Shown here: positions 4,896 to 18,292 of the stretch, one piece after another
Numbering within the stretch: position 1 is the first letter of the stretch
Layout of the letters: every line of letters begins with the position of its first letter
Origin: a virus
Reading direction: 5' to 3' (one strand)
DNA: 31,639 nucleotides
Virus record (IMG/VR): IMGVR_UViG_3300046809_000119
Coordinates: 1-31,639 of that record
Translations under genes and position numbers: made by a program
The notes under the pieces: generated by a model
The model's input: only the letters and a program-made list of their open reading frames with translations
What the model was told of the DNA's origin: nothing
Database searches by the model: none

Positions 4896-6394
4896 TTCTC
4901 ACCGCTAGTCTTGATTGACGTTGCCGGCTCGGCTTCGGACTGCTCCTGCTCGACTGGATCGTTGTCGGGCTGGTCGCCTTCGGGTGTGTCGCCCTCTGGA
5001 TCGTCAAGCAATCCTTCGGTGCCTGGGGGCATGTCGCCTTCCGCATCCTCGATGTCCTCATCGGAAATATTCGAGAAGATGCCAGTGACGTCGGCCGATT
5101 GGCGCAACTCCTTGAGAGCGGCTACGCGCGTGATGATGCCATCGGTAAAGACGCCAGAAACCGCCGTTGCGATGACCTGTGCTGTCTCCGCCCGTTCCTT
5201 CTCGCTCAACTGCCAAAGCGGGTTGAACCGAAAATTGAAGCCTGACGGCGGCTCAGATCCGAACTCGGATCGATAGAGCACGTTGAGCAACGTCGTAAAT
5301 GGCAACCTGAGGCGCCGCTCCTGCTGCGCTGCGATGCTATCGTAATAGTTCCGCAGATCGCTCTCGCCGGTGGAATTCATCCCAGACGGCGACTGGCCGA
5401 ACAACCGCACAAGCGGAATGTCTAGCGCACCGGACAGCTGCTGACCGAATTGCAGAAGCAGATCAGACAGACCAGCGAACGAATACGAGTGCGCCTCGAA
5501 TTCGTCTTCGCCATCCATGAGGGTCAGGCCCTCGTTGGATTGATACTTGCGTATCATGTCCATCTGCTTGGTCAGTGCATCGAGCGCGACACCACCGGCC
5601 GCGATCACCTTGCGGAGATTGGCAACCTTATAGGTACGAAGATGCGCCTTGAAGACGAGCTGCGCTGCACCCTGCGTAGAGCTGTCGAACGCCACGAGGC
5701 GATCATACAGGCGCTCAACGATGCTGAGGCCCCAGCCATTCTCGGTCTGGCGCTGCTGGAATGGCAACTCGTAGCCGTCAATGCGGATGATGCGGCTGTA
5801 ATGCACGCGCTTGTTCATGAGCGCCGGCGCATTCTGATTGATCGTGTAGAACTCTGGCTGGCCGAGGTACGGGCCGAAATCCTTGACGGGCGTGCCGAGC
5901 GATGGCTGAACCATCCATCGGTCTAGCACCAGCAGGCCTTTGAACTGGTCCTTACTGACCGTCTCTGGCCGCAGCGGCGTCGCAACGTCCTGGCCGTCAA
6001 TCAGCATCACGGCGACGGCGCCACCATAAAGGCGCGACCACTTCACAGTGTCGTTGAGAGCCTGCCAGATTTGCAGCCTGCTCATGGTCTGGTGCAGACG
6101 CTCGATGTCGTCAGGATTCGTAGTCCCAGAGATATCAATGCCGGCGCGCGTCATATCCTCAGCAACAACGTCGACGGCCTTACCGACGAGCCATGAGCCG
6201 CGGTACATCCATTCGATCTGTATGCGATTGCGCGTGACTGGGTTGAACCCATACGTCGCGCCGCTCGATACGTTGTCAGTGCCGACGCCGACGCGCGCCG
6301 AGAAGTTCTGATAGGAGTCCTGCGTTTTTGGTGTGTTGTCGTTTGCGTGGGTCGGCTGGCGCTGCTGAATGCGGTTGCTACGGCGTCTCGACAT
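4892..6394 (-). CDS. Portal protein, DUF1073 type
   Basis: The 500-aa protein matches the DUF1073 portal family. It has a basic N-terminus, WMYRGSWLVGKAVDVVAEDMTRAG near residue 65, ALDIPLVRLFGQSPSGMNSTGE in the C-terminal half, and a very acidic Pro/Glu/Asp tail. It should form the dodecameric DNA gate at one capsid vertex and dock the terminase. An ANDN motif lies at 17-20. The ATG at 6394 overlaps the terminase stop (TAATG). Databases often label this family with the anti-CBASS name Acb1 because some members carry that domain at the C-terminus; here the tail is disordered and I see no Acb1 domain. Confidence 0.9.
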   Translation of the reverse strand: MSRRRSNRIQQRQPTHANDNTPKTQDSYQNFSARVGVGTDNVSSGATYGFNPVTRNRIQIEWMYRGSWLVGKAVDVVAEDMTRAGIDISGTTNPDDIERLHQTMSRLQIWQALNDTVKWSRLYGGAVAVMLIDGQDVATPLRPETVSKDQFKGLLVLDRWMVQPSLGTPVKDFGPYLGQPEFYTINQNAPALMNKRVHYSRIIRIDGYELPFQQRQTENGWGLSIVERLYDRLVAFDSSTQGAAQLVFKAHLRTYKVANLRKVIAAGGVALDALTKQMDMIRKYQSNEGLTLMDGEDEFEAHSYSFAGLSDLLLQFGQQLSGALDIPLVRLFGQSPSGMNSTGESDLRNYYDSIAAQQERRLRLPFTTLLNVLYRSEFGSEPPSGFNFRFNPLWQLSEKERAETAQVIATAVSGVFTDGIITRVAALKELRQSADVTGIFSNISDEDIEDAEGDMPPGTEGLLDDPEGDTPEGDQPDNDPVEQEQSEAEPATSIKTSGEK

Positions 6395-8243: not shown

Positions 8244-8320
8244 TGGTTGCGCAGGTCCGATTTGAACGGACGATTTCATGGTTATGAGCCATGCGAGATA
8301 TCGGGCTTCTCTACCGCGCA
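8244..8320 (-). tRNA. tRNA with CAU anticodon (Met elongator or Ile2), CCA encoded
   Basis: A full 77-nt cloverleaf folds on the minus strand. The acceptor stem TGCGCGG/CTGCGCA has seven pairs, one of them G-U. The D stem is GAGA/TCTC, the anticodon stem CATGG/CCATG with loop CTCATAA (anticodon at 8284-8286), and the T arm GTCCG-TTCAAAT-CGGAC; discriminator A and an encoded CCA follow. The first acceptor pair is U-A and the anticodon stem lacks three G-C pairs, so it is not an initiator. The D loop (AGCCCGATA) has A where G19 is normal. Methionine and lysidine-modified isoleucine identity cannot be told apart here. Confidence 0.92.
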
Positions 8321-10996: not shown

Positions 10997-13162
10997 CTAT
11001 TCTTCGTCTTCGTCCGCATCCGTCGGAATGACCCATACCCACTGAGGATTTTCGCCAATCAGGCCATCGGCAAGAAGGTCTTTCTTGGCGCGCTGGAACC
11101 GCTTCTTCTTCGCCTCAGGTGACATGCGATCGCTGTCGTCGGCGTGAACCGCGGCCTTCCACGTCTCAGGCGACACTACCCTCGCACCAGATGGATAGCC
11201 TGACGTCTCCGGATCAACCCCGTCACGCTCAGTCAGTGCCACGAGAAGATCAAACGCCCTTGCGTTCTTGCTCTTCTGCATGTCAGAGCCAGACCGCATC
11301 TGCGTCTCCTCCGCCAGCACCACCACCGGCGCCGTGGTGGCCTCTCCATCCTCGTCAACGCCGATCGGGACAGACTTCATGCTGAAGGCCAGGACGTCAC
11401 CCTCCTCGCCGTCGTTGGTGCCATCGCAGACAAGCCTGTGCTTATTGCCCTCCTTTTTGACCATGAAGCTGGCGTCCACGGCGCCATCAAGATCGATGGC
11501 CCCCTTACCTCGCTCGCCGCTCCATGCACTGTGATGAATGGCTGTGACGTGCGCTTTCGTCTCCGCCAGGATCTCGTCACACGACTGGACGAACCGCGTC
11601 ATGTCCTTGCTGGCGTTCTGGTCGCCACCACCAAACACACGTGTGAGCGTGTCGATGATAACCCAGACGCACTTCATCTCCGTGATAGTCTCGGCCTCAC
11701 GGATAGCGGCGATCAAATCTCGAGCGTCTTTCAGGTCTTTTGTGAAATCGAGCCGTCCACCGATAACCAAGAGTGGCACGTTGTGTACGTCATGGTGCTT
11801 GCGAAAGGCCATCATTCGCCGCTCCGTCAGCTTCTTGCGCTCAGCTGCGACGTAGACCACGAGGCCCTGCTTGACCTTCTTGCCGTGCCACTCCATGCCG
11901 GCAGCTATGTGGCAGGCTATGTCGGTGACCACCACGCTCTTGCCGGTGCCAGGCAAGCCTGAGATGGTCGTGAACTCGCCAACGCCTAGCCAACCTTTAA
12001 GGATTGTTTCCTTCGGCTTGCCCTCCTCGATCTCGTCGAACCATGTCCATTCGAACCGCTCGCGCTTCTTGGGTGTGGCTGTTGCTTCGGCCGCAATGTC
12101 ACCGGTTGGTGACACGCCAACCGTAGCTGCGGACGGGGCGTCCTTCTTAGCTCTATTCCGCTCGGCGAAGGCTTTCAAATCCTCAGGATCAGAACCATTG
12201 TCGTTGGCTCGTTCAGGTATTTGTCGAGGCGAATTGGCCGTCTTGTCGAGGCCGCGCTTTATTTTATCCCAAGTCTTCCGATCACCGTCGGTTCCAACAA
12301 GGCCATTCGAAGTTGCTGCATCGAACAATCCGGCCTCCGCTTCCGATCGTGAGATGTATCCGCCGGCGACGAATTCGCCGATATTGCAGGCGCTGGCGAA
12401 TAGCTGCTGGCCGCGTTGACCCTTTGGCGCAGATATCAGCTTGTCGAGTTCCATCGTGAAGGACTTCGACGCGTATGCTGTTGCACCGGTATCATCTGCC
12501 GGCCTGTAGGTATATTCGGATTTGACGCGCTCAACTGCGGCAGGCGCCTTCGTGATGACCATGTCGACAAGCCACGCCGGAGCATCCGCGAATTCAGGAA
12601 TGCCATCTTCCTCCCAATCCTTCCACACATAGCGTCGACCGTCCGCCATCACGGATCCAGGCGCCAGAATATAGCCACCGTCGCCACGCGTATCGACACC
12701 TGGTGCAATTGCAGCGCGGTTCCTTATGCCGACGACATGCTTGAAGAATATATGCGTACCGCCGTTAGCCGTAGATGCGCGAGCCGTTGGCGGTAGCTGG
12801 CCGTGCTGCGCCTCCATGGCCTCCAGCCATTTATGGCCGTCCCTGTCGTCGTGGCGATCTAGGTCCAAAACCCATCCCGCCAATTTCTCGCCAGTCGGTA
12901 CACCTATGGCCGCGCCTGCGTGCCGGTCGCCGAACCAAATATTGATGATGCGGGCCGACGTGGTGGCGTCTTTGAGACCGTATGCTGTATACGGCGACTT
13001 CTCGGCGAACTCTATTAACTCGCCGGTGGTGTGGTCGACACCTTCGATCGTTGCTTCTCGACATGGAAAAACGGGAATGCCCGCTGCGATATACGAGCGG
13101 GCAACATCGATTGGAGCTCTGTCTGACACAGAACGTGGTGGCTTGAAGTTTATTTTGGCCAT
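10997..13162 (-). CDS. Primase-polymerase / AAA helicase fusion, replication initiator
   Basis: The 721-aa protein joins an N-terminal prim-pol domain to a RecA/AAA_25 helicase. Prim-pol motifs are VLDLDRHDD with DLD at 100-102, NGGTHIFFKH at 133-142, and VDTRGDGGYILAPGS from 156. The helicase has Walker A GLPGTGKS at 402-409, Walker B VIIDT at 501-505 and AIHHSAW near 541. The last 120 residues look like a winged-helix DNA-binding region (SPETWKAAV...KKKRFQRAKKDLLADGLI) with an acidic tail. An ANDN motif lies in the linker at 319-322. The ATG overlaps the preceding stop (TAATG). It probably opens the origin at the adjacent repeat array and primes synthesis. Confidence 0.88.
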   Translation of the reverse strand: MAKINFKPPRSVSDRAPIDVARSYIAAGIPVFPCREATIEGVDHTTGELIEFAEKSPYTAYGLKDATTSARIINIWFGDRHAGAAIGVPTGEKLAGWVLDLDRHDDRDGHKWLEAMEAQHGQLPPTARASTANGGTHIFFKHVVGIRNRAAIAPGVDTRGDGGYILAPGSVMADGRRYVWKDWEEDGIPEFADAPAWLVDMVITKAPAAVERVKSEYTYRPADDTGATAYASKSFTMELDKLISAPKGQRGQQLFASACNIGEFVAGGYISRSEAEAGLFDAATSNGLVGTDGDRKTWDKIKRGLDKTANSPRQIPERANDNGSDPEDLKAFAERNRAKKDAPSAATVGVSPTGDIAAEATATPKKRERFEWTWFDEIEEGKPKETILKGWLGVGEFTTISGLPGTGKSVVVTDIACHIAAGMEWHGKKVKQGLVVYVAAERKKLTERRMMAFRKHHDVHNVPLLVIGGRLDFTKDLKDARDLIAAIREAETITEMKCVWVIIDTLTRVFGGGDQNASKDMTRFVQSCDEILAETKAHVTAIHHSAWSGERGKGAIDLDGAVDASFMVKKEGNKHRLVCDGTNDGEEGDVLAFSMKSVPIGVDEDGEATTAPVVVLAEETQMRSGSDMQKSKNARAFDLLVALTERDGVDPETSGYPSGARVVSPETWKAAVHADDSDRMSPEAKKKRFQRAKKDLLADGLIGENPQWVWVIPTDADEDEE

Positions 13163-13827
13163 TAGGCTGCAATCTCCAGATTATTGTTGTCGTTGGCATA
13201 CTGCGGCAGGCCACCAAAGAATGAACGCGGCCACTGGTCAGCCATCGCGTTGGCAATTCCGGCGAAAAACCTTGACCGTTCTCGCCACCTGTCTGGCCCG
13301 GGTGGCATTCGATGCACCCGGGCGATACGTCCGTCGACAACTTTGGTGGGCGTTAGCTTCGGCAGGTTCTTGAGCCAAAGGCAGGTGCGCTTGGTTTCAG
13401 GGTGACCATACTGCCAAGGTTGTACGCTCTGCGCGAAATCACGATAGTTTATGATCCGCTTCTTCGCGTGCTTGTGCATGACAGGGTTCTCGATCGCGAT
13501 ACGTTCGATTGGCGCGTTCCAGAACGCAGAAAACAGCTCCGCACCCTCATCAAGTTCAGCCCACATGTCGCTTGCTGTGCGCCCCGGAGGAGGCGCAGAT
13601 AGCCAGCGAACGCCGCTGTTGCAGAGCCGCGTGCAAGGCGGATGCGCTACCATAAGCAAATCCCATCCATCGTTAAGTAGATCGCGAGCGTCGCCTTGAA
13701 TATGACGATTGCTTCCATCCTCGCTTGGGAGCAGATCGCAAGACCATGCGTCATGTCCGCGGTCGAGGAACGCATTGCGAACGGTCCCCGAGAACTCGCA
13801 TGCGACAAGAACCTTCATCGCCCGCAT
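13162..13827 (-). CDS. Cytosine C5 methyltransferase-like protein
   Basis: The 221-aa protein resembles the core of DNA cytosine-5 methyltransferases. Motif I-like VACEFSGTVRNAF holds FSG at 12-14. HPPCTRLCNSG carries PPC at 63-65 with the nucleophile-type cysteine. IENP at 112-115 stands where ENV is usual. It lacks room for a normal target recognition domain and ends with RMPPGPDRWRERS and an ANDN motif (211-214). Such short relatives are frequent in phages and untested; they could methylate DNA, modify a non-standard base, or act on nucleotides. The ATG at 13827 overlaps the preceding stop as TGATG with GGGAGG upstream. Confidence 0.7.
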   Translation of the reverse strand: MRAMKVLVACEFSGTVRNAFLDRGHDAWSCDLLPSEDGSNRHIQGDARDLLNDGWDLLMVAHPPCTRLCNSGVRWLSAPPPGRTASDMWAELDEGAELFSAFWNAPIERIAIENPVMHKHAKKRIINYRDFAQSVQPWQYGHPETKRTCLWLKNLPKLTPTKVVDGRIARVHRMPPGPDRWRERSRFFAGIANAMADQWPRSFFGGLPQYANDNNNLEIAA

Positions 13828-14210
13828 CAAAACGGCGCCTCCCGCAACGCCTCACGGACCCCCCGCGCGCAGCCTTCCCACGCCGCCTTGACCAGCATCA
13901 GCTGCATGAGCTCATCATAGTGCGCCAAGTCAGTCAGGTTGCCGTTCGATGCAATCCACTCGCCGACGGCCTCGACGCCCTTTTCAAGCGCCTTGACTTC
14001 GTAGATCGATACCCTGTCCAATTTCGTTAGATCTCCTATCGCTACGATGCACGGCTTGCAGAGATAGCCAGGGTCTTTTGATCCAGGCGCAGGTCGACCG
14101 ATGCCGAACGCCAGACAGCCGCACGCCTTGCAGACGGTCGGCTGGCCGTCGGTATCCTGGGTAGGCGTGAATGGGATGATGGGCTGGCCTGTTGGTGGAA
14201 GTTTAGCCAT
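13827..14210 (-). CDS. DUF6511-like protein with zinc-finger N-terminus
   Basis: The 127-aa protein has a four-cysteine cluster CKACGC...CKPC (residues about 27-54) that likely binds zinc. The C-terminal half (YEVKALEKGVEAVGEWIA...LTDL...AREALREAPF-like) matches the helical DUF6511 pattern found in phages. Function is unknown. It overlaps both neighbours (8 bp with the transporter gene, 1 base with the methyltransferase-like gene), so it is made together with the modification genes. A role as an accessory DNA-binding subunit is speculation. Confidence 0.65.
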   Translation of the reverse strand: MAKLPPTGQPIIPFTPTQDTDGQPTVCKACGCLAFGIGRPAPGSKDPGYLCKPCIVAIGDLTKLDRVSIYEVKALEKGVEAVGEWIASNGNLTDLAHYDELMQLMLVKAAWEGCARGVREALREAPF

Positions 14211-14736
14211 GGGCTGCAGTCACGCGGCGGATGGAGGCAACATGCAGAAAGCCGAACGCCAGAGCGCTCATCCATAGCTTGCCGAGTATCTGGCCTTCGA
14301 TGAACTGAAGGCTGCCGAACGCGAGAAGCAAGAAGATTGCGCTATCGACGATGGATCCGATCAGTCCACTGCCGAGGACTGCCAGACCAAGTCCACGCTT
14401 TCGCAACGGGATGTAGACTGCAAGGTCGGCAACTTCAGCCAGCATGAAGGCAGCCACAGAGGCCACCACAAGCGCAGGCGGAGCAAATAGCGCCGATAGT
14501 CCGCCGCCAATCGCTATGGCTACCAGCGCCCCGCGTGTTCCGTGCTGTTCGTGGATCCAGTCGCGCAGCACCATAGCGATACCTACGAGCAGGACACCGC
14601 TAGGTGCCAGAAGGCCTAAGCCCACCGGGATCATGCACGGTCCATTCGGAATGCACATGGTGCCGACGTTGCCAATCATCCAGTTGGCTGCAGGGATAGT
14701 CAGGATGAACAGGACGAACGATATCCACTTGCTCAT
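14203..14736 (-). CDS. VUT/YhhQ-type queuosine precursor transporter
   Basis: The 177-aa protein is an integral membrane protein with about five or six hydrophobic helices, starting MSKWISFVLFILTIPAANWMI. VUT/YhhQ family features are the intramembrane LAPSGVLLVGIAMVLRDWIH (residues about 43-62), GGGLSALFAPPALVVASVAAF with AEVADLAVYIPLRKRG, and a last helix pair. Known members carry 7-deazaguanine precursors (preQ0/preQ1) or vitamins across the inner membrane. The start overlaps the stop of the deoxyribosyltransferase-like gene (ATGA) and has GGGAG eight bases upstream. In a phage it would raise the host supply of a modified-base precursor. Family assignment is firm, substrate is inferred. Confidence 0.85.
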   Translation of the reverse strand: MSKWISFVLFILTIPAANWMIGNVGTMCIPNGPCMIPVGLGLLAPSGVLLVGIAMVLRDWIHEQHGTRGALVAIAIGGGLSALFAPPALVVASVAAFMLAEVADLAVYIPLRKRGLGLAVLGSGLIGSIVDSAIFLLLAFGSLQFIEGQILGKLWMSALAFGFLHVASIRRVTAAHG

Positions 14737-15128
14737 GCGTAGAACTCCCTGACGTAAGTCATCGCGGCTTCGAACGATGGTGCGATCTTGTGGCTGTGGT
14801 AGCGCATCCATGGCGAGATGCGCGTCCCGTCTTTGGCCACGACCACGACAAGTTTGCCGCGCTCGAATGCGTAGAGGATTTCCATTGACGTACCGACGCT
14901 CGGCTTGTCGTAATTTACCAGAATTACGTCCGACTCGATAACGTCGATCTTGTCGAGTTCAACGATCTCTTTGACGGAATCGTCTTCCTTGCCGCGATAG
15001 TCGCGACGCATTGGATCAAGCGTGCGGCCATCCCAGTTGGCGGTCACGAACTCGCGCCAGTCCTTGCACTCCTCGTCAGTGCATCCATTGATCGGCCCGC
15101 ATAGGTAAAGGGTCTTAAGCTGCGACAT
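14733..15128 (-). CDS. Nucleoside 2-deoxyribosyltransferase-like protein
   Basis: The 131-aa protein has the order of this Rossmann-like family. It starts with TLYLCGPINGCTDEE at 6-20, has LDPMRRDYR with a conserved Asp, and DKIDVIESDVILVNYDKPSVGTSMEI ends in the likely catalytic Glu83. SPWMRYH follows near 105-111. Relatives break the glycosidic bond of deoxynucleosides and exchange or release the base. In this cassette it might make or destroy deoxynucleosides of an unusual base. The ATG at 15128 overlaps the end of the DpdA-like gene by 14 bp; its leader has ACCACCACGAAGGAGA. Confidence 0.75.
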   Translation of the reverse strand: MSQLKTLYLCGPINGCTDEECKDWREFVTANWDGRTLDPMRRDYRGKEDDSVKEIVELDKIDVIESDVILVNYDKPSVGTSMEILYAFERGKLVVVVAKDGTRISPWMRYHSHKIAPSFEAAMTYVREFYA

Positions 15129-15819
15129 CGAATAGGTCTCCTTCGTGGTGGTTGGTTTTCATTATCCATTTGACTGGGCACTGAACTGCGTCGATACGGC
15201 GGGCCATCCTTTCCGGGCACACCTCACTTCCTTTGTTCTTAAAGTTCCTGGCTATGTTAGTGCTGTCGGCGCTGGCGAACGGCCAGATATCCCCGCAAAC
15301 AGCAAGGCCGCGCAGCATATGCACCCAAGGTCTTAGCCTTCGGCTTTCAAGGGCATTGAATGCCTCGTCCGTTCTTCTTGCCCACTTGTCAGAGCCCACC
15401 TGCCAATACTGTCCAGACGACCCAAAGCAGACTTTCGGCCAATTGTCGGCGAGCTCGAGTAGGTAATCGATCGGCAAGCCTGTGTGCCAAACGGGAGCGG
15501 ATAGTTCTTTGGGAAAAGGCCACTGAGCAACAAGTTCCCGCTGCTCCTCAACGGCGCCGCCAATCACGTCCGGGACAACCGCCCAGTGCGGATGGCCAAG
15601 TTTCTGTTCAACCCATCTGTAGTATGGCTTCCAATCTGTGATGGGCTTGCCTTGAGTGAAGGCTGGGTATCCGCCATTGTCCCACCCGACAGACTGGCCA
15701 TTGGCCAAGCACCATTCAGCGTCGCCCGGATTGGCGAAGGACACGAAGAAGCACTTGCCCGCCATCTTAACGAGTTCGGAACGAGGGGTGATTGGCGTTC
15801 CGTGGTAGTGGATGGTCAC
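15115..15819 (-). CDS. TGT/DpdA-like putative DNA base transglycosylase
   Basis: I read this 234-aa protein as a short relative of tRNA-guanine transglycosylase and of DpdA, which exchanges guanine for a 7-deazaguanine in DNA. Matching positions are GWDNGGYPAF with Asp47, where TGT has DSGGF; VVPDVIGG with Asp84; PVWHTGLPIDYLLEL followed by VCFGSSGQY (131-138), the barrel strand that holds the base; and HMLRG...PFASADSTNIARN with Asp185, where DpdA has SADS. It starts with GTG in a GTGA overlap with the methyltransferase gene. The match is pattern-based, and the protein is shorter than usual DpdA proteins, so structure comparison is the deciding test. Confidence 0.55.
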   Translation of the reverse strand: MTIHYHGTPITPRSELVKMAGKCFFVSFANPGDAEWCLANGQSVGWDNGGYPAFTQGKPITDWKPYYRWVEQKLGHPHWAVVPDVIGGAVEEQRELVAQWPFPKELSAPVWHTGLPIDYLLELADNWPKVCFGSSGQYWQVGSDKWARRTDEAFNALESRRLRPWVHMLRGLAVCGDIWPFASADSTNIARNFKNKGSEVCPERMARRIDAVQCPVKWIMKTNHHEGDLFDVAA

Positions 15820-16880
15820 GCAGCCACCCGCACCGGCTGATTGTCGTTGGCAGCAGCAAACAGATCAGCGGCCGGCTGCTCCTTGGTGCCAAGCGCTGCG
15901 ATGTTCTTGACAGCTTGGCGGAAATACGAAGGTTTCAGCTCGAACCCGACGCCAATGCGACCCATCTCGACGGCGGAATAGACCTCGCTGCCGATGCCAA
16001 GGAATGGTGTCAGAACGACTTCGCCAGGCAGGCTCCACAGATCGATGCACCGCTCGATCACGTCCAGTTGCAGCGGCGAGATATGCTGCTCGTCCTGCTC
16101 GTCCCGGCCGCCACGATATTGCAGGGTGCGCGTCTGACGAATGTCGCTCCACACCGGCGACGCGTAGCGCTGCCAGACGAACACGGAACGCCATTGCTCA
16201 AAGCTCCAAGGCGTGCGGCCTTCGGCGATCGTGTCAGCCGCGTGCCGATCGTAAGCCTCGCGGCTAACGTCAAGGCCGCCATCTTCGCCGGCCTGTGAAC
16301 CAACGAACGCATCAAACATGCCGTCGACGGGCTCGATATTCTCACCGGGCTTGCGGAACGAAACGATGTAATCGGCAAGCCCCTGGCCGCTGATGCAGCT
16401 ATCCTTCGTGACCTGCTTGTGCAGCAGTCGAATGGACTTGGTGCGCTGCTGCGCGACGACAGGGTCTTTCCAGATGCAGACTTCGGAATGGAAGATCCAT
16501 CCGGCGTCTTCGTAGGCGCGAATGATCTCGCCGCGGAAGTCGCGCATACCGATGAAGCCGTTTCTTCTCTTGCTTGTCGGCAGCTGCATGCAATGGACGG
16601 AATGGATACGACCGGGCTTGGTGACGCGGAGGAGTTCCTGAATCAGGAACGCATAGTGCGTCCAGAAACCAGAGCCTTCGTTGTTGCTGATGTCTCGGTC
16701 GAAGCTCGAAAATTTATAGAGACCCTCGAACGGCGGAGAGTGAATTCCGAAATGGACGCTGTCGCCGGGGATGGCGCGGATCAGTTCGCACGAGTCGCCC
16801 TCGTAGATCGCGTACTTGTCGGTGATGACCTGGTTCACAGTGTTGATATCTGCGGTCACGGTTGCTGCGGTCACTGTCAT
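15816..16880 (-). CDS. DNA methyltransferase, N4-cytosine/N6-adenine type
   Basis: The 354-aa protein has the catalytic SPPF at 48-51 (DPPY class, the SPP form being common in N4-cytosine enzymes). The SAM-binding motif LTPFLGIGSEVYSAVEMGRIGVGFEL lies near the C-terminus, i.e. the beta-group order, with a large insertion between them that may recognise DNA. An ANDN motif is at 344-347. AGGAGG lies six bases before the ATG at 16880, which overlaps the helicase stop (ATGA). No restriction endonuclease lies beside it, so it is probably an orphan methylase for anti-restriction or timing. Confidence 0.85.
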   Translation of the reverse strand: MTVTAATVTADINTVNQVITDKYAIYEGDSCELIRAIPGDSVHFGIHSPPFEGLYKFSSFDRDISNNEGSGFWTHYAFLIQELLRVTKPGRIHSVHCMQLPTSKRRNGFIGMRDFRGEIIRAYEDAGWIFHSEVCIWKDPVVAQQRTKSIRLLHKQVTKDSCISGQGLADYIVSFRKPGENIEPVDGMFDAFVGSQAGEDGGLDVSREAYDRHAADTIAEGRTPWSFEQWRSVFVWQRYASPVWSDIRQTRTLQYRGGRDEQDEQHISPLQLDVIERCIDLWSLPGEVVLTPFLGIGSEVYSAVEMGRIGVGFELKPSYFRQAVKNIAALGTKEQPAADLFAAANDNQPVRVAA

Positions 16881-18292
16881 TGGGCGCCTCCTAGCCATGT
16901 GGGGATCTGCATTGGGATCTTCGGGTCGTAGGTGGCCTTGTCGCGAACCTGCGAGTTGATGGCTTGCTTGGTGATGTTTGCCGTGTGCAAAACCATCGCT
17001 GCGGCCATGCGATCGGCGTCGGCTTCCTTGCGTTTCAGGTTGGCGACGACCGCGCCTTCCGTATCGGCCGCGATGAACCAAGCGAAGACTTCGCCAGTCT
17101 GGCCGAACCTCCAGCATCGACGAACGGCTTGGAATATTTGCTCCCAGCTGTCATTGAGCCCGACGAACGCCATGCGTCGGCAGTGCTGAAAATTCAGGCC
17201 CCATCCGAACATTGACGGCTTCAAGATGATGTTTGGCTTGTCGCCAGCGAGCCAAGAGAACAGTAGGCTTTCCTTCAATTCGTCTTTTTGCGTGCCGCGG
17301 ATTGAAATGGCGGCATCGCCAAGCAACTTCTCCAACGCATCCTGTTCAGCATTGAGATTGCACCAAAAGATGCACGGCAGCCCGTCTTTAGGCACGACAT
17401 CAACCGCTGCTGCGCACCTTTCCAACACGCTGTCTCGCCGTGCCCTGATACGCTCTTGCATCGTCGAAGCAGTTCCGCCGATCAGGTCGATACCGTCTGG
17501 CGCAGTTGTCACCGTATGGTGAATTTGATGCAAAGCCGGCAGATCATACGCGCCGTCCTCGTATCCGAGATCGGACGGCTTCTGCAGTAGGACTGACCAC
17601 GAAGCCATCCACCGCCAGAAATCGTTCTCGGCATGACCCTTCAAGCGCCACTTCTGCGTCTCACCACCATCGTGGGTGAAGAACGTCGCTAGCATGTCGG
17701 AATAGGACATGATGCCGAGGAACTCAGCCTGGTTGCCCAGCTCCATGTAGTCGTTCGGTGACGGGGTCGCCGTGGCCGACAGCCGGAATGGGATGTTGTG
17801 GCAGGCATCGACCAACTCGTTGCGATAGTGACCTGACTCTGACTTGAGGATGCTGCTCTCATCGAGGATCACGCCGCCGAACTCGTTGAGATCGAAGTGT
17901 TCAATCTTCTGGTAATTGGTGATGTTGATGCCCGGGCCGCAATCGGCTTGCGACCGGACATGCCTAGCAGGGATGCCAAACTTCTCAGCCTCGCGCACCA
18001 TCTGCGCGGCGACTGCTAGCGGCGCGAAATGCAGGACGTCGCCCTGCGTCGCGTGGTGCACGGCTTGTCCCCACGCAAGCTCCATGAAGCTCTTGCCGAG
18101 ACCAGTGCCAGCAAACAACGCCGCCCGACCGCGCTTGAGCGCCCATGTCACGATGTCTCGCTGAAATGGAAACAGCCCTGCGGGCAGATCCGGAATCTCC
18201 GATAGGCCAGTTGGCGGATCGAGGATCGCCTTTCTGGCCAAGAACGCGGCATAGGCATCCGCTTGCGCACTTGGCGCAACGTTGGTTTGCAT
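16877..18292 (-). CDS. SNF2/DEAD-like superfamily 2 helicase
   Basis: The 471-aa protein has a Q-like motif LFPFQRDIV at 40-48, Walker A GTGLGKS at 62-68, motif II LDES at 143-146, motif III SATATP at 172-177, and motif VI IFQAVRRCWRFGQ in the C-terminal lobe, the layout of phage SNF2-like ATPases. It should translocate on double-stranded DNA rather than unwind it. It heads the overlapping gene block that runs to the primase, so it may support methylation, modification or replication. GAGGAG lies five bases before the ATG at 18292, and a hairpin/ACCACCAC leader precedes it. Confidence 0.88.
   Translation of the reverse strand: MQTNVAPSAQADAYAAFLARKAILDPPTGLSEIPDLPAGLFPFQRDIVTWALKRGRAALFAGTGLGKSFMELAWGQAVHHATQGDVLHFAPLAVAAQMVREAEKFGIPARHVRSQADCGPGINITNYQKIEHFDLNEFGGVILDESSILKSESGHYRNELVDACHNIPFRLSATATPSPNDYMELGNQAEFLGIMSYSDMLATFFTHDGGETQKWRLKGHAENDFWRWMASWSVLLQKPSDLGYEDGAYDLPALHQIHHTVTTAPDGIDLIGGTASTMQERIRARRDSVLERCAAAVDVVPKDGLPCIFWCNLNAEQDALEKLLGDAAISIRGTQKDELKESLLFSWLAGDKPNIILKPSMFGWGLNFQHCRRMAFVGLNDSWEQIFQAVRRCWRFGQTGEVFAWFIAADTEGAVVANLKRKEADADRMAAAMVLHTANITKQAINSQVRDKATYDPKIPMQIPTWLGGAQ

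Follow-up and report, generated by a model that had tools for sequence, protein, structure and literature searches.

A candidate three-gene cassette for 7-deazaguanine salvage in a virus genome, and the association of its deoxyribosyltransferase-like protein with DpdA

The virus record IMGVR_UViG_3300046809_000119 was analysed over its full length of 31,639 bases (the window; at 31.6 kb, it may be a fragment). On its minus strand, positions 18292 to 10997 hold a block of eight open reading frames whose overlaps measure 1 to 14 bases when two of the frames are started at 16880 and 14736 (Table 1). An earlier reading of this DNA, here called the original prediction, had described the overlaps correctly and had counted seven frames. 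Four junctions are 4-base overlaps (ATGA twice, GTGA once and TTGA once). Within the block lie adjoining genes for a short DpdA, a protein of the nucleoside 2-deoxyribosyltransferase (NDT) superfamily and a VUT/YhhQ-type membrane transporter. A near-identical block (99.96% identity over 15.4 kb) was found on contig L003 from another metagenome, and the trio DpdA-NDT-VUT is also present in L019, L020 and L042 (L numbers are our locus handles); the block is therefore more than a chance arrangement. We consider it probable (about 0.6) that the three genes form a salvage cassette for 7-deazaguanine modification of DNA. QueC, QueD, QueE and FolE were looked for and not found in the window, as the original prediction had noted for precursor synthesis genes, which agrees with salvage within the limits of a 31.6-kb record that is perhaps a fragment.

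The 234-aa DpdA-like protein matched the PHROG profile phrog_887 ('queuine tRNA-ribosyltransferase') with E 3.1e-42, and gave no match in Pfam (E up to 1) or NCBIfam (E up to 0.1). Relatives were detected in 104 of 50,697 phage records, among them MED16, whose DpdA is 37.6% identical to that of the window (E 3e-30). An AlphaFold2 model built from 62 sequences reached a pLDDT of 93 and a pTM of 0.89. Among the 50 structural matches listed by VIA (Z 13.6 to 14.6), 46 were tRNA-guanine transglycosylases (TGT), one was a Cap10 complex and three were PdxJ. As the PdxJ barrels (Z 13.7-13.8) are tied with the TGT entries (Z 13.6-14.6), the TIM barrel stands firm, while little weight can be put on the order of the matches; Foldseek found nothing below E 0.001 and ranked TGT third, in the company of other TIM barrels. 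Three aspartates are conserved in the alignment (D46 in 62/62, D83 in 62/62 and D184 in 61/62 rows, numbered without the start Met); D46 and D184 are the Asp47 and Asp185 of the original prediction, and the motifs that it cited are present. The protein is thus a short DpdA, a member of a phage DpdA sequence family with a TGT-type TIM barrel, the fold that the original prediction required, and is probably a guanine/7-deazaguanine transglycosylase that would act on DNA. On one single contig, L124 (5998-8126), two DpdA genes stand about 740 bases apart.

Phage MED16 has DpdA without other pathway genes and carries the modified base dADG in its DNA, at about 0.13% of G; with the restriction enzymes tried, its authors report no noticeable effect of the modified base (PMC8306585). 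Phage 7-11, with DpdA only, has dADG at about 0.02% of G, and phage Orion, with DpdA alone in a host without the pathway, has none of the modified base (PMC6884629).

The transporter matched PF02592 with 46.5 bits (cut-off 27.2). Its start was placed at 14736 and not at 14811, as four relatives from named phages begin there in the alignment, in which two IMG/VR relatives were read from longer frames; with this start, the gene joins NDT through an ATGA overlap. Neighbourhoods were compared for the 80 top-scoring DpdA relatives in IMG/VR, out of at least 583 that were confirmed. VUT was present in 70 of these 80 loci, in all 70 on the same strand, lying before DpdA in 40 and after it in 30, at a distance of at most 50 bases in 53, at most 300 in 13 and further in four. 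It adjoins DpdA or lies within two genes of it in the named phages RHph_X2_30, Pam5, RHph_N3_2 and Opt-719. Against this pairing, no VUT gene was found in the stretches examined of Caulobacter phage DMCA, Microcystis phage Mae-JY30 and MED16; in DMCA, QueD precedes DpdA in place of VUT. In 80 control loci around relatives of the window's short methyltransferase, VUT occurred three times, each time with DpdA present. VUT is accordingly a real partner of DpdA, a conserved neighbour as originally proposed, and its substrate would be a base of the preQ0/preQ1 type. On contigs L119 and L125, a QueC-like frame sits between VUT and DpdA (5453-6001 on both).

The NDT protein matched PF05014 with E 9e-8 (32.7 bits, cut-off 28.8). 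Its model (pLDDT 95) aligned over 124 residues with the deoxyribosyltransferase 7o62 (Z 16.9, root-mean-square deviation 2.2) and over nearly its whole length with MilB (Z 15) and DNPH1 (Z 14). In a profile search of the PDB the best solved relatives were DNPH1 chains (E 1.4e-5). DNPH1 is a deoxynucleoside-5'-monophosphate N-hydrolase with the triad Y24, D80 and E104, in which S98 binds the phosphate (PMC10603095); these residues align with Y8, D59, E83 and S77 of the window protein. In its family Y8 and E83 are found in 41/41 sequences, D59 in 39/41 (Glu in two) and S77, six residues before the Glu, in 39/41. Tyr instead of Phe at the first site is associated with deoxyribose, as in MilB F17Y (PMC10603095), and NDT enzymes that use free nucleosides are reported to carry Asp or Asn for the 5'-hydroxyl (PMC12884076). 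Pro39 is kept in 40/41 sequences; position 14 is Asn in 19/41 and Asp in 1/41. From these residues and the model, we infer a retaining N-glycosidase of 2'-deoxynucleoside 5'-monophosphates (dNMP), which may be a hydrolase or a transferase. Queuosine 5'-monophosphate derived from tRNA was considered as a substrate and is less likely, because Tyr8, a sign of deoxyribose specificity, is kept in 41/41 sequences.

Two NDT proteins (L076, 126-863; L081, 658-1422) are fused behind a conserved phage domain, phrog_2831, for which no Pfam match was found. A motif in this domain looks MazG-like, which would fit a relay from deoxynucleoside triphosphate to dNMP to base. In Bradyrhizobium phage BDU-MI-1 (L281, 4995-6172), an NDT of a sister subfamily directly precedes a putative deoxynucleotide monophosphate kinase, a hint of a role at the dNMP level.

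The co-occurrence of NDT with 7-deazaguanine genes was counted in the best 80 of 252 relatives from an IMG/VR scan, using DpdA and Que profiles built from these same loci and from phages. Such genes were present in 63 of the 80 loci: DpdA in 62, QueD in 24, QueC in six, FolE in four and QueE in one, with VUT in five. The corresponding numbers were 0/80 for a sister NDT subfamily and 4/80 for the short methyltransferase; Fisher tests, which ignore relatedness, gave p = 8e-29 and 3e-23, respectively. The sister set was collected with an alignment of five proteins, a single-protein query having yielded two loci, and one of its members (L279) shares a contig with L023 of the NDT set. DpdA lies on the same strand within 50 bases of NDT in 46/80 loci, QueD in 20/80. 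On a rough NDT tree of 98 rows, built on few columns and with many forks left open, in which HRTV-29 was scored as DpdA-positive on the word of PMC8651126, the two genes swap their order (DpdA-NDT or NDT-DpdA) at least six times. At E 1e-5, the relatives included ten named records, representing six phages. In three of these, NDT lies inside a queuosine cluster with DpdA: between QueD and FolE in Erebus, between QueE and QueC in RHph_X3_2, and after QueC, FolE and DpdA in ZHS. On contig L078 (40-5163), three DpdA-like and two QueC-like genes, QueE, QueD and NDT are packed into about 5 kb.

Three of the 63 loci were counted for a divergent DpdA: without them the number was 60, and at 85% identity 31 of 48 NDT groups had such genes. 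In these loci a member of phrog_15826, a PHROG family with no named function, adjoins NDT (L065, 9114-9998; L071, 4063-4770; L073, 10376-11083). A profile of the three proteins detected the DpdA-like proteins of 30 further loci (E 3e-34 to 4e-9), which suggests that phrog_15826 is one more divergent form of DpdA. Against counting it stands an hhalign comparison of the three with the DpdA alignment of the window, which fell short of significance (probability 3.6). A weak match in L043 (1e-4) was left out. Whole contigs were searched for 22 records (the 20 NDT loci then lacking such genes, plus L025 and L049). Elsewhere on these contigs phrog_887 matched in 1/22 (that of L049, 20 bits) and QueC at E 0.001 in 2/22, one of them, again that of L049, over the cut-off. 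Among the neighbours of the NDT loci without such genes, no Pfam family occurred in more than three (70 of 102 listed proteins scanned, 15/20 loci).

Taken together, the window's NDT is a member of a virus subfamily that goes with 7-deazaguanine genes, a partner that recurs however the base is obtained and yet is optional, and the original prediction's proposal of the deoxyribosyltransferase-like protein as a partner is supported. The tie between this subfamily and DpdA looks new; DpdA and VUT are of known kinds. A link between NDT and DpdA was stated nowhere in the literature found by search, which consisted of partial texts, and other texts may hold an earlier report. PMC8651126 assigns the archaeal-virus NDT to pyrimidine synthesis.

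The other genes of the block are listed in Table 1. The short methyltransferase-like protein, which had been put forward as a C5-like pathway partner, was not supported in that role: its relatives have DpdA or Que genes nearby in 4/80 loci, one of which is the window's twin. It is a neighbour and not a specific partner. The N6/N4 methyltransferase is a neighbour in the block. Outside the block, the minus strand carries a tRNA-Met gene (anticodon CAT) at 8244-8320 of the window; the terminase gene is some 400 bases away.

Table 1. Genes of the overlapping minus-strand block and the evidence for their assignment.
Feature	Position	Strand	Evidence or remark
Helicase-like protein	16877..18292	-	phrog_62, E 1.8e-56; upstream end of block
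N6/N4-type DNA methyltransferase	15816..16880	-	PF01555, 51.8 bits, above cut-off; start 16880 by ATGA overlap
Short DpdA, 234 aa, GTG start	15115..15819	-	phrog_887; model; TGT structural matches
NDT-superfamily N-glycosidase (predicted), DNPH1-like, 131 aa	14733..15128	-	PF05014; DNPH1 profile match; model
VUT/YhhQ-type (COG1738-like) membrane transporter, ~177 aa from ATG 14736	14203..14736	-	PF02592
DUF6511 protein	13827..14210	-	PF20121, 29.4 bits (cut-off 28); phrog_19707
Short methyltransferase-like protein	13162..13830	-	phrog_757, E 4.5e-63
Primase/helicase (Prim-Pol + AAA_25)	10997..13162	-	PF09250 and PF13481 above cut-off; downstream end of block

In the cassette proposed here, the VUT protein would import a 7-deazaguanine base of the preQ0/preQ1 type, and DpdA would exchange guanine in the phage DNA for the imported base. 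NDT would keep the scarce base free for DpdA, by hydrolysis of, or base exchange on, the 7-deaza form of deoxyguanosine monophosphate (7-deaza-dGMP) released from degraded DNA. Several results weigh against this scheme. Comparison of DpdA with nine bacterial TGT by hhalign was not significant (probability 0.2), and its profile found no match among PDB sequences up to E 10. The transporter scored 39.2 bits on TIGR00697, the equivalog for queuosine precursor transporters, which is below the cut-off of 50.95. The NDT counts are of sequences and not of independent events (48 groups at 85% identity), and across the NDT tree the label for presence of 7-deazaguanine genes switches no fewer than 15 times. 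No such genes were found in the stretches examined of PhiCh1, Moorella phage MTATph1 and HRTV-29 (10 kb for the last); HRTV-29 carries a DpdA according to PMC8651126, not annotated within these 10 kb. No 7-deazaguanine gene is seen in 17 of the 80 NDT loci, of which some lie on long contigs, nor in the surroundings of 11 of 12 NDT loci in bacterial genomes (L263 alone has QueD and DpdA); NDT hence also has settings other than 7-deazaguanine loci. Finally, NDT is present in just 2/80 of the closest DpdA loci and is thus an optional part.

These 17 loci, together with DNPH1 as the best solved relative by profile and the two fusions behind another phage domain, would also suit a nucleotide-pool sanitiser that destroys unwanted dNMP and is loosely tied to modification. 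This is quite unlikely in our view, since DpdA and Que genes were absent from all 80 loci of the sister NDT subfamily. Somewhat better placed, though still unlikely, is a reaction in the reverse direction, in which NDT would take deoxyribose 5-phosphate off dGMP, or off some other dNMP, and attach it to the free 7-deazaguanine, so supplying 7-deaza-dGMP for replication by a second route besides DpdA. There is a precedent in DmtZ, a dAMP hydrolase that also carries out transfer to the Z base (PMC12884076). Pro39 of the window's NDT aligns, weakly (E 0.5), with a proline of the Leishmania deoxyribosyltransferase, and is taken to be the counterpart of DmtZ Pro57, which is described as common to every known transferase (PMC12884076). 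Yet the proline mutant of DmtZ retained transfer (PMC12884076), the window's protein is not a DmtZ orthologue (Asp59 and Asn14 where DmtZ has Asn77 and Asp12), and a nucleotide route is unnecessary because DpdA adjoins. A related and equally tentative idea is that the phage subfamily is a dedicated phosphodeoxyribosyltransferase, which might swap guanine for 7-deazaguanine on dNMP and would provide a second route beside DpdA, convergent with DmtZ.

The target of the transglycosylase might also be host tRNA or a protein, the cassette then tuning translation or defence. The TGT fold is silent on the target, and a Cap10-CdnD complex with an NDG modification (9ntn, by its title) is among the best VIA matches. 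We regard this as distinctly improbable: the phages MED16 (PMC8306585) and 7-11 (PMC6884629), which have DpdA only, contain dADG in DNA, and at 234 aa the window's DpdA is far shorter than the TGT of E. coli (375 aa). Least probable is the original prediction's single hypermodification pathway of all five chemical genes, both methyltransferases included; the overlapping frames speak for it, and the 4/80 loci of the short methyltransferase, with the twin among them, against it. The three-gene salvage cassette thus remains the preferred reading.

Modification with 7-deazaguanine is a known phage route to restriction-resistant DNA (PMC6884629), and the cassette may protect this virus in the same way. 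The pathway schemes found, in the partial texts cited, comprise synthesis genes, a transporter and DpdA. The presence of NDT with DpdA in 62/80 loci, whether the base is imported, QueD stands alone or more of the pathway is encoded, points to a deoxynucleotide-level step acting on the base, which those schemes lack. NDT may therefore be an overlooked part of the 7-deazaguanine pathway. Such a step is made plausible by DmtZ (published in 2026; PMC12884076), for which assays are ready, and as the cassette is small, with three short proteins, it is easy to test.

Among known systems, the closest is the lone-DpdA group (the third group of PMC6884629, with 7-11 and MED16), which likewise has DpdA without FolE or QueDEC; the window additionally has the VUT transporter and the NDT enzyme. 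DmtZ of the PurZ0 phages (PMC12884076) is, like the window's NDT, a phage enzyme of the NDT superfamily with catalytic Tyr and Glu, found in base hypermodification. It differs in the base concerned and in its Asn77 and Asp12, replaced in the window's protein (Asp59 in 39/41; position 14), and similarity is marginal (hhalign probability 55 to Ghobes gp53, taken as DmtZ by its Y6, D12, N77 and E103). With the nucleotide N-hydrolases DNPH1 and MilB, the window's NDT has the fold, the triad and the phosphate-binding serine in common. The E55-H56 pair of DNPH1 aligns with R35-T36 in a gappy alignment and is thus not evidently kept, the base-recognising Arg of DNPH1 and MilB is Asn14, and Pro39 is conserved in the window's family. 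The queuine salvage hydrolases QueK and Qng1 free a 7-deazaguanine base for a transglycosylase (PMC11130926), as proposed here for NDT; the two are described there as mutually unrelated and as using what tRNA hydrolysis yields (PMC11130926), whereas Tyr8 of the window's NDT points to deoxyribose. The YhhQ/QPTR transporters (COG1738) share PF02592 with the VUT protein, which lies below the TIGR00697 cut-off. In a 2019 survey, phage YhhQ homologues were not correlated with any phage group (PMC6884629, in the text available); in the DpdA clade described here, by contrast, VUT is correlated with DpdA, in 70/80 loci.

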